Positions 3,619 through 18,643 of a stretch of 38,790 nucleotides of DNA are shown one piece after another. The position numbers were made by a program, and so were the translations under genes. The stretch lies in the IMG/VR virus record IMGVR_UViG_3300028809_000005, positions 1 through 38,790 of that record. One strand, 5' to 3'. The DNA comes from a virus. The notes below the pieces were generated by a model. That model was given only the letters and a program-made list of their open reading frames with translations, had not been told where the DNA came from and made no database searches. How positions within the stretch are numbered: the first letter of the stretch is position 1; every line of letters starts with the position of its first letter.

Positions 3619-4929
3619 TTAAACCGCCATTAAATTAAAGTGTGGCTTTAGGTCGAAATATTCCCTCATCATCAAAGTATCTGAAAAGTCGGGAGATCGG
3701 CCTATAATTTCTTTTACTTTTTCCTTTGGAACTATCGCATTTTTCCCATCCTTATCTATATCCTTTTTCTTCACTTGCTCCAGTTCCTCGATTATTAACT
3801 GTTTATCTGAATTGTCAACCTGCTCTATGAATAATCCACCGTCATTAATCCTCTTAGCAAGCGCCCAATAACATTGGCTTTTCAGATTAGCGTAGTTTGG
3901 CTTTTCACCCATTATAGTGACCGGCGAACTGCCATTTACAAATCCGGTACAGCCCATTATATCAACTACGCCGCCGCCAACGCCGTCCTCATCTACTATA
4001 ACCCGGCTCAAAGGTATTGAATTTTCTTGCCTTATAAATGCAAGCTTTTCGGCTACTTGGGTAACGGAAAGGCCTTTATATGACTGGATTCGTACACGAT
4101 ACCCTGACCAAACCCCTATAACTGTCTTATCCTGCCCAAACCGCGCAACGTCACAAGTTATGTATTTTTCACCCGTATTTACGTATGAATTAGTAAAGCA
4201 GTCTAAAATACTATCATAGCTTATCAATGCGGCAGGATCGTCGTCGTATTCCCAGTTACCGAACAATAGCCGCTCCTTGCTCTGTTTATCCAGTTTACCG
4301 AGGTTATCTACATAGTGCTTGCTAATATCTGGATTGTCAGTAACTAAAGCTTGAATGAATTTACGATAATTTTCAATATTGCCGTCTCTTGACGGGCGGT
4401 AGAATTGGGAGTAAACCCAATTTTTGGCTGGATTGCAGGTAATAAGCATCTTAGGAATTAGCCCGTATTCATCTAGCATATGCCGGATGCGGGAGAAAAG
4501 AACCGTTTTGGCCTTCTCTACCAGCTGATTGCCTTCATCGATAAAGGCGCCAGTTATTTCCAACGACCCCAGGCTATCAAACTCCGGATCCGACGGCGCA
4601 AATGAAAGATCCTTAAGAAGAATAACGGAGCCATTGGGGAACTCTATAAGGTTCTTAGGGTTGTCGTAGTACTTGTAGTGTAAGTTTGCCTGTAGGCCTT
4701 GTAATTTAGCCACCTTGAAGAATGTGACCAGTGTTGTTTGTTTGAGTGTTGTCAATTCAGATCGGCCCATAACCCAGCGAGTGCCTGGGTACTTGACGGC
4801 GCATTTGAGCAACCAATAACATCCCAATATGCTTTTCCCGCCGCCAGCCGCGCCCCCATAAAGGATTTCAGTGTTAAACTTATCCTCTAAGTAATCAAGC
4901 GCCCGCGTCTGCTTCAGGTTCAGAATCAC
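3619..4929 (-). CDS. terL: Terminase large subunit
   Basis: 436 residues. The ATPase domain has Walker A GGAAGGGKS at residues 25-33, Walker B GAFIDEGNQ with D131-E132, and the coupling motif ITCNPA near 163-168. The RNase H-like nuclease domain follows, with ITCDVARFGQDKT (D260), VIVDEDGVGGG (D313) and SPDFSDTL near the C-terminus supplying the acidic triad. The protein translocates DNA into the prohead through the portal and cuts concatemers. Its start overlaps the small subunit by 35 bases, so the two are probably translationally coupled. Confidence 0.93.
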   Translation of the reverse strand: MILNLKQTRALDYLEDKFNTEILYGGAAGGGKSILGCYWLLKCAVKYPGTRWVMGRSELTTLKQTTLVTFFKVAKLQGLQANLHYKYYDNPKNLIEFPNGSVILLKDLSFAPSDPEFDSLGSLEITGAFIDEGNQLVEKAKTVLFSRIRHMLDEYGLIPKMLITCNPAKNWVYSQFYRPSRDGNIENYRKFIQALVTDNPDISKHYVDNLGKLDKQSKERLLFGNWEYDDDPAALISYDSILDCFTNSYVNTGEKYITCDVARFGQDKTVIGVWSGYRVRIQSYKGLSVTQVAEKLAFIRQENSIPLSRVIVDEDGVGGGVVDIMGCTGFVNGSSPVTIMGEKPNYANLKSQCYWALAKRINDGGLFIEQVDNSDKQLIIEELEQVKKKDIDKDGKNAIVPKEKVKEIIGRSPDFSDTLMMREYFDLKPHFNLMAV

Positions 4930-5368
4930 TTTTGTATGTTTTGGTTTCTGCCCAGTTTACGGTCATGTTGCCGGTGTTATGCACCTCCGTTTTATCTCTC
5001 CATTTTTCAGGCTGGCGATTCATCAGCCAAAACCGGGTTGCCCGGAAGTCTTTTTGAGCAAATCGCTTGTTACGGAACTTCATAGGAGCGCCATTTTCGC
5101 CCATCGCCTCGGTTTCTTCCTCATAATGATACCCCAAAGCCTGATCGTACAAGCTGGCTGCTACCTTCATATCTGCATCCTCTTTTCCGCGCTTGATGGA
5201 CTCAACAAATGTATTATGCTTTAATTTCCAATTGTTTATAGTCGTTTCGGTTACATTAAAGAAGTTTGCAAGCTCTTTATCAGTAGCGCCCAATAAGCAT
5301 AGCTTAAAGGCTTGATCATCAAATTCTGGCCTATAATCTGTAGGCGCTCCCGGTTCACCATTAGCCAT
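4895..5368 (-). CDS. terS: Terminase small subunit
   Basis: 157 residues. A helix-turn-helix lies at about residues 28-51 (ATDKELANFFNVTETTINNW), followed by a segment including ASLYDQALGYHYEEE and RFWLMNRQPEKWRDK. This layout is typical of terminase small subunits that recognise the packaging site and stimulate TerL. The start is ATG 5368, about 20-25 bases downstream of the predicted transcription start from the promoter box at 5397-5404. It is the first gene of the late packaging operon and follows the terminator-promoter array. Confidence 0.85.
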   Translation of the reverse strand: MANGEPGAPTDYRPEFDDQAFKLCLLGATDKELANFFNVTETTINNWKLKHNTFVESIKRGKEDADMKVAASLYDQALGYHYEEETEAMGENGAPMKFRNKRFAQKDFRATRFWLMNRQPEKWRDKTEVHNTGNMTVNWAETKTYKSDSEPEADAGA

Positions 5369-5396: not shown

Positions 5397-5404
5397 CAAA
5401 TATA
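5397..5404 (-). promoter_or_regulatory. -7 box P1 (TATATTTG) for terS
   Basis: Read leftward the bases are TATATTTG, a perfect TAnnTTTG. The box lies eight bases past hairpin T1 and about 30 bases before the terS start. I see no clear TTTG -33 element, because that position falls inside the hairpin. It is the last promoter box of the array. Confidence 0.6.
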
Positions 5405-5412
5405 GAGAAAAT

Positions 5413-5434
5413 CCCCGACTTTTCAGGGCCGGGG
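5413..5434 (-). terminator. Hairpin T1, terminator-like
   Basis: Leftward transcript: CCCCGG...CGGGG stem followed by ATTTTCTC. The U-tract is weaker than in the other three array terminators. It is followed directly by the P1 box. Confidence 0.6.
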
Positions 5435-5473
5435 AGTAGTTCTACTTAAAAATGAGCGACACGTCCACTAAGG

Positions 5474-5481
5474 TAAATGTA
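5474..5481 (-). promoter_or_regulatory. -7 box P2 (TACATTTA)
   Basis: TAnnTTTa, seven of the eight consensus positions counting the two free ones. It lies about eight to nine bases past hairpin T2. Transcription from here would end at T1 after roughly 60 nt. Confidence 0.45.
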
Positions 5482-5490
5482 ATAAAAAAC

Positions 5491-5510
5491 CCCGAGTTTT
5501 TACGCTCGGG
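5491..5510 (-). terminator. Rho-independent terminator T2
   Basis: Leftward transcript: CCCGAG, loop GUAAAAA-type, CUCGGG, then a G and six U. The six-base GC-rich stem with a clean U-tract is a good intrinsic terminator. Confidence 0.75.
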
Positions 5511-5560
5511 CCTCGTCATCCCGGTGTAGATGGGACTGTTTTAGACCGGCCTGATATATT

Positions 5561-5568
5561 CAAAGATA
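5561..5568 (-). promoter_or_regulatory. -7 box P3 (TATCTTTG)
   Basis: Perfect TAnnTTTG read leftward, seven to eight bases past hairpin T3. A transcript from here would end at T2 after about 70 nt. Confidence 0.5.
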
Positions 5569-5575
5569 ATAAAAA

Positions 5576-5598
5576 AGCCGGACATTTTAAGCCCGGCT
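5576..5598 (-). terminator. Rho-independent terminator T3
   Basis: Leftward transcript: AGCCGG, 11-base loop, CCGGCU, then six U in total including the stem end. Good intrinsic terminator form. Confidence 0.75.
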
Positions 5599-5644
5599 GT
5601 GAAATGAGAACCCCTGGTTTGACGCCATGGAAAATTTCGCAGTT

Positions 5645-5652
5645 CAAATATA
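5645..5652 (-). promoter_or_regulatory. -7 box P4 (TATATTTG)
   Basis: Perfect TAnnTTTG read leftward, seven bases past hairpin T4. A transcript from here would end at T3 after about 65-70 nt. Confidence 0.5.
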
Positions 5653-5659
5653 CAAAAAA

Positions 5660-5677
5660 GGCCGGAATAAACCGGCC
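5660..5677 (-). terminator. Rho-independent terminator T4
   Basis: Leftward transcript: GGCCGG, short AU-rich loop, CCGGCC, then six U. This is the strongest stem in the array. Confidence 0.78.
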
Positions 5678-5736
5678 GGGGGAATCCTACTTACTTATCG
5701 ACTTGCGCCGGGCACTTGGCCGTTTCAGATTCGATA

Positions 5737-5767
5737 CAAATTTACAAAACTCCCCGGATTAGACAAA
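5737..5767 (-). promoter_or_regulatory. Bacteroidota-type promoter P5
   Basis: Leftward: TTTG (5767-5764), exactly 19 bases, then TAAATTTG (5744-5737), a perfect match to the Bacteroidota primary promoter consensus. The predicted start near 5729 is followed by terminator T4 at 5677-5660, with no gene between, so the expected product is an RNA of about 75 nt. Confidence 0.72.
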
Positions 5768-5807
5768 ACAGGGCTAACAATGATTCGTGTATTTGACCCA
5801 CACAAAA

Positions 5808-5822
5808 GCCGCGAAACGCAGC
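5808..5822 (-). terminator. Terminator T5 at end of accessory operon
   Basis: Leftward transcript: GCUGCG, UUU loop, CGCGGC with one G-U pair, then UUUUG. It lies just past the stop of the last small gene at 5831 and probably ends that operon. Confidence 0.65.
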
Positions 5823-11295: not shown

Positions 11296-11316
11296 GCTAA
11301 GTTTCAACCATTCTCG

Positions 11317-11389
11317 TGGTTCCTACACGATTTGAACGTGTGACCTTCAAATTATGAGTTTGCTGCTCTACCAACTGAGCTAAGGAACC
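11317..11389 (-). tRNA. tRNA-Met (CAU anticodon)
   Basis: A full cloverleaf reads leftward: acceptor GGTTCCT / AGGAACC, D-arm GCTCAGTTGGTAGAGC, anticodon loop CTCATAA giving CAU, and T-arm ACACG-TTCAAAT-CGTGT. The discriminator is A at 11317 and CCA is not encoded. Position 1 pairs with 72 and the anticodon stem lacks the three G-C pairs of initiators, so it is an elongator tRNA-Met. A tRNA-Ile2, where C34 is changed to lysidine, cannot be excluded. The outer anticodon-stem pair (27-43) is a mismatch. Confidence 0.92.
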
Positions 11390-18342: not shown

Positions 18343-18643
18343 AGAATCGCTATTTTTTATCCTTAAATCCATATTCGTTAATGAACTTTACACGGAATAC
18401 AAGTTTCATGAAACGCGCCGTTTTAGGTTCGATTACGCCGTGCCGATGTATAAAATAGCAGTGGAATACGAGGGCATAATGGGAGGTAAGGCTCGGCACA
18501 CAACAATAAAAGGGTATACAAAGGACTGCGAAAAGTACAATTTAGCGAATGAAATGGGTTGGCACGTATTCCGGTATACAGTGCTAAACGTCGATCAATG
18601 TTATAGCAATATTCAATCATTTTTGCGCCATAAACAGAAATAG
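18332..18643 (+). CDS. Restriction-endonuclease-fold nuclease (DUF559/VSR-like)
   Basis: 103 residues. RRFRFDYAVPMYKIAVEYEG supplies the D...ExE-type catalytic pattern of small PD-(D/E)XK nucleases, and HTTIKGYTKDCEKYNLANEM plus GWHVFRYT matches a known phage family with 'GGRH..GKGY..DCEKYNEA..LGW.V.R.T'. It overlaps recT by 11 bases, so it probably cuts DNA in the RecT pathway, for example as a resolvase or end-processing nuclease; this is inference. Last gene of the rightward operon. Confidence 0.75.
   Translation: MKPKESLFFILKSIFVNELYTEYKFHETRRFRFDYAVPMYKIAVEYEGIMGGKARHTTIKGYTKDCEKYNLANEMGWHVFRYTVLNVDQCYSNIQSFLRHKQK

Follow-up and report, generated by a model that had tools for sequence, protein, structure and literature searches.

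Tandem terminator-promoter units upstream of the terminase genes of a Bacteroidota-type phage: a candidate small-RNA array with a recurrent layout

Genomic setting and anatomy of the array

The genome examined here, IMG/VR record IMGVR_UViG_3300028809_000005, is 38,790 bases in length and was analysed as a whole (this entire stretch is referred to below as the window). Its first 127 bases are identical to its last 127 (a direct terminal repeat), so the record represents a complete, terminally redundant genome assembly. The phage is of the Bacteroidota type. An array of hairpins and promoter-like boxes lies on its minus strand, flanked by a small ORF (5986-5831) on one side and by terS (5368-4895) on the other. 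Upstream is a minus-strand run of small genes; downstream, terS is followed by terL and the portal gene. A tRNA-Met (CAT) gene is found at 11316-11389 (-) within the small-gene region, and this tRNA was the sole real match in an Rfam search of the window, the array giving weak chance matches. The features are as follows, in the direction of minus-strand reading:

5808..5822, minus strand: T0, weak hairpin GCTGCG-TTT-CGCGGC, then TTTTGTG (folded, -8.5 kcal/mol alone)
5737..5767, minus strand: P5 promoter, TTTG (5767-5764)-N19-TAAATTTG (5744-5737), an exact match in the sequence
5678..5736, minus strand: body of RNA 5, 59 nt to the hairpin; predicted RNA from about 5732 to 5653 (putative start)
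5654..5677, minus strand: T1 terminator, GGCCGG-TTTATT-CCGGCC + TTTTTT (stem-loop 5677-5660, -11.9 kcal/mol)
5645..5652, minus strand: P4 -7 box, TATATTTG, 7 nt past the T1 stem (from sequence)
5599..5644, minus strand: body of RNA 4; predicted RNA from about 5640 to 5569 (putative start)
5571..5598, minus strand: T2 terminator, AGCCGGGCTTAAAATGTCCGGCT + T-tract (hairpin 5598-5576, -14.1 kcal/mol)
5561..5568, minus strand: P3 -7 box, TATCTTTG, 7 nt past the T2 stem (from sequence)
5511..5560, minus strand: body of RNA 3; predicted RNA from about 5556 to 5483 (putative start)
5484..5510, minus strand: T3 terminator, CCCGAGCGTAAAAACTCGGG + GTTTTTT (hairpin 5510-5491, from the hairpin scan)
5474..5481, minus strand: P2 box, TACATTTA, imperfect as it ends in A, 9 nt past the T3 stem (from sequence)
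5436..5473, minus strand: body of RNA 2; predicted RNA from about 5469 to 5405 (putative start)
5408..5435, minus strand: T4 terminator, TCCCCGGCCCTGAAAAGTCGGGGA + TTTT (hairpin 5435-5412, -13.7 kcal/mol)
5397..5404, minus strand: P1 -7 box, TATATTTG, 7 nt past the T4 stem; predicted start of the terS transcript
4895..5368, minus strand: terS, terminase small subunit, the first gene past the array (phrog_309, E 8e-42)
3619..4929, minus strand: terL, terminase large subunit (PF03237, phrog_979)

The core of the array consists of four strong GC hairpins with T-tracts, each followed by a TAnnTTT box. The distances from stem to box are 7, 7, 9, and 7 nt, as in the original prediction (7-9 bases), and the boxes are spaced 92, 84, 87, and 77 nt apart. 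T1 to T4 have the GC-rich hairpin and T-tract of predicted intrinsic terminators, and they rank among the strongest hairpins genome-wide. Five terminators and five TAnnTTTG-type boxes had originally been counted; all of these elements are present, with two corrections. The fifth hairpin, T0 (5808), is weak: its stem of 6 bp includes one G-U pair and is closed by a triloop, it was missed by the genome hairpin scan, and no box follows it at array spacing. The boxes of P5, P4, P3, and P1 were upheld (the last three being the internal boxes that are exact TAnnTTTG), while the fourth internal box, P2, is imperfect.

P5 is indeed the perfect TTTG-N19-TAAATTTG promoter that had been proposed, and its layout agrees with that of the sigma-ABfr type -33/-7 promoter mapped in B. 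thetaiotaomicron (PMC7366714). Measured against this promoter (TAnnTTTG at -7 and TTTG at approximately -33), P5 is full, P4, P3, and P1 are limited to the -7 box, and P2 has an imperfect one; TTTG at -33 is absent from all four internal boxes. The strength of the internal boxes is uncertain because this -33 element is missing and because P2 reads TACATTTA. Within the hairpins, the nearest thing to a -33 element is TTG, which is loosely concentrated at -22 to -26 (12/39 units).

In a repeat search of the window, the junctions between units form a 40-nt repeat family whose members are 65-70% alike. The bodies between the junctions are mutually dissimilar, in agreement with the earlier statement that they differ in sequence; resemblance is confined to the junctions. 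Structure prediction suggests that the P5 and P3 bodies are partly folded. The P4 body (5632-5590, -) contains a 13-codon ORF, MASNQGFSFHSRA, that ends within the loop of the T2 hairpin; no similar ORF was noticed in other arrays.

The alternation of terminators and boxes is real: all elements are on the minus strand, and their arrangement is non-random when compared with shuffled sequence. Strict composites, defined as a hairpin, at least 4 T in the gap, and an exact TAnnTTTG 5-9 nt after the stem, occur at only three places in the 38.8 kb (both strands), namely 5652, 5568, and 5404. Dinucleotide shuffles contain a mean of 0.05 such composites and a maximum of 1. A two-unit pattern likewise matches the window once, versus 0 matches in 100 shuffles.

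Recurrence of the layout in other phages

TerS has no close relative in viral or genome contigs; therefore, we searched for the architecture rather than for homology. A DNA search with the window against phage records gave no match, and none of the relatives of TerS, TerL, or the portal protein shows the same array. The TerL relatives are at most 64% identical, and the phages carrying them have a different TerS and no array. Because TerL relatives of up to 64% identity to the window protein (genes at 3619-5368) are paired with an unrelated small TerS-like protein, the two terminase subunits seem to have separate histories of gene exchange.

An initial pattern of two units (a T-run and TAnnTTTG, then 50-80 nt and the same again) gave matches of which some, among those listed, have true hairpins before their boxes upon folding. 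The pattern was refined by requiring G/C before the second T-run and was scanned against the complete IMG/VR collection using three equally wide gap ranges, which gave 78 stretches at a spacing of 64-94 nt, 17 at 95-125, and 11 at 33-63. Hairpins were considered verified at -9 kcal/mol or better before both boxes. Tandem pairs passing this threshold make up 29/79 places at 64-94 nt, 1/20 at 95-125, and 0/14 at 33-63 (these places come from a re-scan, hence the slight mismatch with the stretch totals). The 29 verified places fall into 12 blastn clusters, two of which are linked via their common junction alone; thus, about a dozen unrelated phage families carry the layout (one locus, L338, is possibly a coding repeat and is to be discounted). 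A search of related phages for the hairpin-box spacing had been suggested as a check on the prediction; the alternation recurs in unrelated ones. What the clusters have in common is the T-tract/box junction (TTTTTTATTATATTTG) and not the bodies. Box spacing lies within 65-87 nt in the IMG/VR arrays, 65-82 nt for those of the scan, versus 77-92 in the window.

The refined pattern had 0 matches in 296 Bacteroidota genomes (roughly 2-7 Mb each), a comparison between phages and genomes that is indicative only, since it depends on how large a part of IMG/VR consists of Bacteroidota phages. A three-unit pattern applied to genome contigs was set aside, as it retrieved mostly type II-C CRISPR arrays and other repeats, the only hairpin array being the L285 repeat family. 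In a 75-kb phage contig (L133, 3316-4095), 57-nt units with TAAATTTG boxes form a long, imperfect tandem repeat that has no strong GC hairpins.

In the other families, composite units are rare per phage and are found mainly inside the array, on the late-gene strand; the neighbours of the arrays include capsid-like, terminase, head-protease, and other genes in several families. The last box is immediately before a gene in L122, L339, L350, L351, and L354. In L187/L211/L212, L104, and L335, the last promoter is followed by a body and terminator with no ORF directly behind. These arrays are hard to see as promoters of a downstream gene and fit short-RNA genes. Start codons are located 3-4 nt past the TAnnTTTG box in L122 (2935-2946), L339 (4608-4620), and L354 (12486-12498), which suggests that phage mRNAs may be leaderless or nearly so at these loci. 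Behind the array of L097, at 5236-5280, is the sequence GACGAGGGTTCGACTCCCTCCACCTCCACA, similar to a tRNA or tmRNA 3' end. ARAGORN found no gene there, and the sequence is possibly an attachment site.

Conservation and complementarity of the bodies

The bodies differ from family to family and are conserved within two clades. All seven sequences of the L122 clade have the body GGTTCGTAATTGTTTTTT unchanged, and the preceding hairpin differs between two subclades. Members of the L350/L351 clade retain the body core CTTGGATTnnaTCTGTTTTCTATTAC and differ in their loops. L187 and L212 are 91% identical overall, too close for conservation to be judged.

Body 1 of the L350/L351 clade can pair with codons 4-14 of the gene that follows the array, with RNAduplex z scores of -3.4 to -5.4 relative to mononucleotide-shuffled bodies. 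Body and gene covary between the subclades (GATTGAC/GTCAATC to GATTTAA/TTAAAC). A further match to this body, 12-14 nt long, lies immediately before the start of orthologous MNYK... genes in three phages; a fourth has a gapped version of it. Body 2 is the reverse complement of the leader before many early-strand genes: for G008, G314, and G315, though not for G317, none of 60 dinucleotide shuffles reaches its mean match to early leaders, and no clear or comparable excess is seen against the late genes of L350/L351-type phages. As an alternative, body 2 may hold an opposite-strand copy of an early-gene leader. In all four of these genomes (L395-L396, L408-L413, L416-L419), many early-strand genes have a leader like TTCACT..TAAAAACAAAAC just before the ATG, possibly a translation or promoter signal.

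Outside this clade, matches are isolated: body 2 of L097 matches where a 118-aa ORF begins, and the L340 body matches at a start codon. A pooled p value of 3e-6 for complementarity to gene starts was rejected as inflated, because ORFs antisense to the arrays themselves had been included; with these removed it is 0.017. When the L350/L351 clade is left out, pooled complementarity across families has p 0.28, significance being limited to that clade. Within the window phage, antisense targets of the four bodies are not significant (pooled p 0.56). The best match anywhere, of the P5 body to 18417-18433, ranks at about the 95th percentile of shuffles, uncorrected for the use of four bodies. Target prediction, which had been suggested as a check, thus pointed to no phage gene for the window, and the suggested decoy role for its RNAs gained no support.

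Comparison with known systems

The pR'-6S RNA-tR' region of phage lambda is a single late unit with a terminated leader of about 194 nt, controlled by Q. Both lambda pR' and the window array have a promoter firing into a terminator just before late genes, with a short RNA as the product (predicted in the case of the window); however, lambda has one unit under Q control, whereas the window holds several units, each of 60-80 nt, and no antiterminator is known for it. Sibling sRNAs such as LhrC of Listeria and Qrr of Vibrio are partly clustered and share sequence and targets. They resemble the array in comprising several short RNA genes, in part clustered, but the siblings are alike, whereas the bodies of one array here are unrelated.

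The FopS sRNAs of Bacteroides comprise 14 paralogues with a shared R1 seed; the report describing them mentions no tandem array, and it notes a FopS sequence in one Bacteroides-targeting Caudovirales phage (PMC11697453). The predicted likeness extends to the sigma-ABfr type of promoter (complete here at P5), single-stranded 5' seed, 3' terminator hairpin, and multicopy nature (PMC11697453). In contrast to the one shared seed of FopS, the bodies here differ, the units are in tandem, and it is the terminator-promoter junction that is shared. Searching Rfam with the window array (E up to 5) and with 15 array loci yielded neither FopS nor any other family, in an Rfam copy that may or may not hold a FopS model.

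Type II-C CRISPR arrays of Bacteroidota carry a promoter in each repeat (PMC10309648). Matches in our collection, 77-nt-period arrays in Bacteroidota genomes (L287, L220, L225, L246, and L261), have the box TTTTNNNTANNTTTG in every repeat and look like type II-C CRISPR with a promoter-like box embedded in the repeat. Their tandem 77-nt units and repeated box recall the window array; however, CRISPR repeats are near-identical and lack a terminator, whereas the window units differ and each ends in one. The window units are alike (60-75%) at the junction only, and no cas gene is present among the scanned proteins.

In the literature searched, we found no account of phage arrays made of tandem terminator-promoter units, although one may exist elsewhere. 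The new element is the recurrent layout; sRNA genes of phages and Bacteroidota are already a known kind.

Interpretation and alternative explanations

We interpret the locus as a tandem array of composite terminator-promoter units that would produce four short RNAs and reset transcription before the late operon, and assign this reading a probability of roughly 55%. The main rival, which we consider a good deal less probable, is an insulator with redundant late promoters: the terminators would block read-through to terS, the boxes would be spares, and the RNAs functionless by-products. The position of the array between the minus-strand small genes and terS, the exceptional strength of its hairpins, the five loci at which the last box directly serves a gene, and the lack of targets for the window bodies all agree with this. 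Yet one terminator and one promoter would be enough for such a purpose, three arrays finish with a terminator that no ORF immediately follows, and insulation leaves unexplained both the narrow unit length and the conserved bodies whose hairpins have been replaced. A switch similar to lambda pR'-tR', in which constitutive promoters fire until a phage antiterminator opens the late operon, would suit an array that precedes late packaging genes and that has the promoter-short leader-terminator order familiar from lambda. We regard it as improbable: the bodies of one array have no common recognition sequence or motif, several arrays elsewhere lead to no gene, and no antiterminator gene was identified among the subset of ORFs searched.

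Proximity to terS, and repeats about eight helical turns apart, would be in keeping with hairpin repeats read as DNA by TerS, that is, a packaging (pac/cos) or DNA-binding site; however, the same arrays adjoin many unrelated genes in other phages, and the T-tract and promoter box, needless for a DNA site, are always present, making this very unlikely. We give equally little credence to chance, by which T-rich sequence past terminators would mimic -7 boxes. T-richness is common to T-tracts and TAnnTTTG, and the internal boxes do lack -33 elements, but the shuffle results and the spacing specificity across the whole IMG/VR collection disfavour it.

In the small-RNA reading, each unit would be a hairpin whose T-tract leads straight into a -7 box of the Bacteroidota type. 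From one box, the host RNA polymerase would transcribe approximately 60-80 nt and stop at the next unit, so that each RNA would comprise a largely single-stranded 5' part and the next terminator hairpin. A length of about 60-75 nt had been proposed earlier. Four distinct short RNAs would result from the row, which would in addition stop transcripts of the upstream small-gene operon from reading through, and the last box would start the late terS/terL transcript. The anatomy, its non-randomness, its recurrence at one narrow spacing, and the conserved bodies of two other clades are shown; where transcription would begin and end, and what the array would regulate in the window phage, is inferred. 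Judging from the L350/L351-type clade, the RNAs would act by base pairing, perhaps with host mRNAs as targets. Of the readings considered, the one originally drawn, in which a small-RNA battery precedes a terS promoter, agrees best with the recurrence, the arrays without a following ORF, and the conserved and complementary bodies elsewhere, and is partly supported; targets in the window phage are the part for which it found no backing.

A broader proposal, which we offer tentatively and consider somewhat doubtful, is that tandem sRNA batteries, assembled from fused terminator-promoter units of about 65-90 nt, form a class common to Bacteroidota phages; that in at least one clade a late-strand RNA complementary to a common early-gene leader would shut down early translation late in infection; and that the window holds the longest array of distinct bodies found in the search.

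Significance

To our knowledge, the small RNAs of Bacteroidota phages are almost unexplored. The array looks like a type of phage small-RNA battery, or of transcription reset, that is widespread but has not been described before and, if this is true, it is a compact device in which terminator and promoter occupy one stretch of DNA. A recognisable layout with a defined unit length would allow such sRNAs to be found from sequence alone, and would permit testing of whether RNA batteries control early/late switching or host genes in gut and environmental phages.
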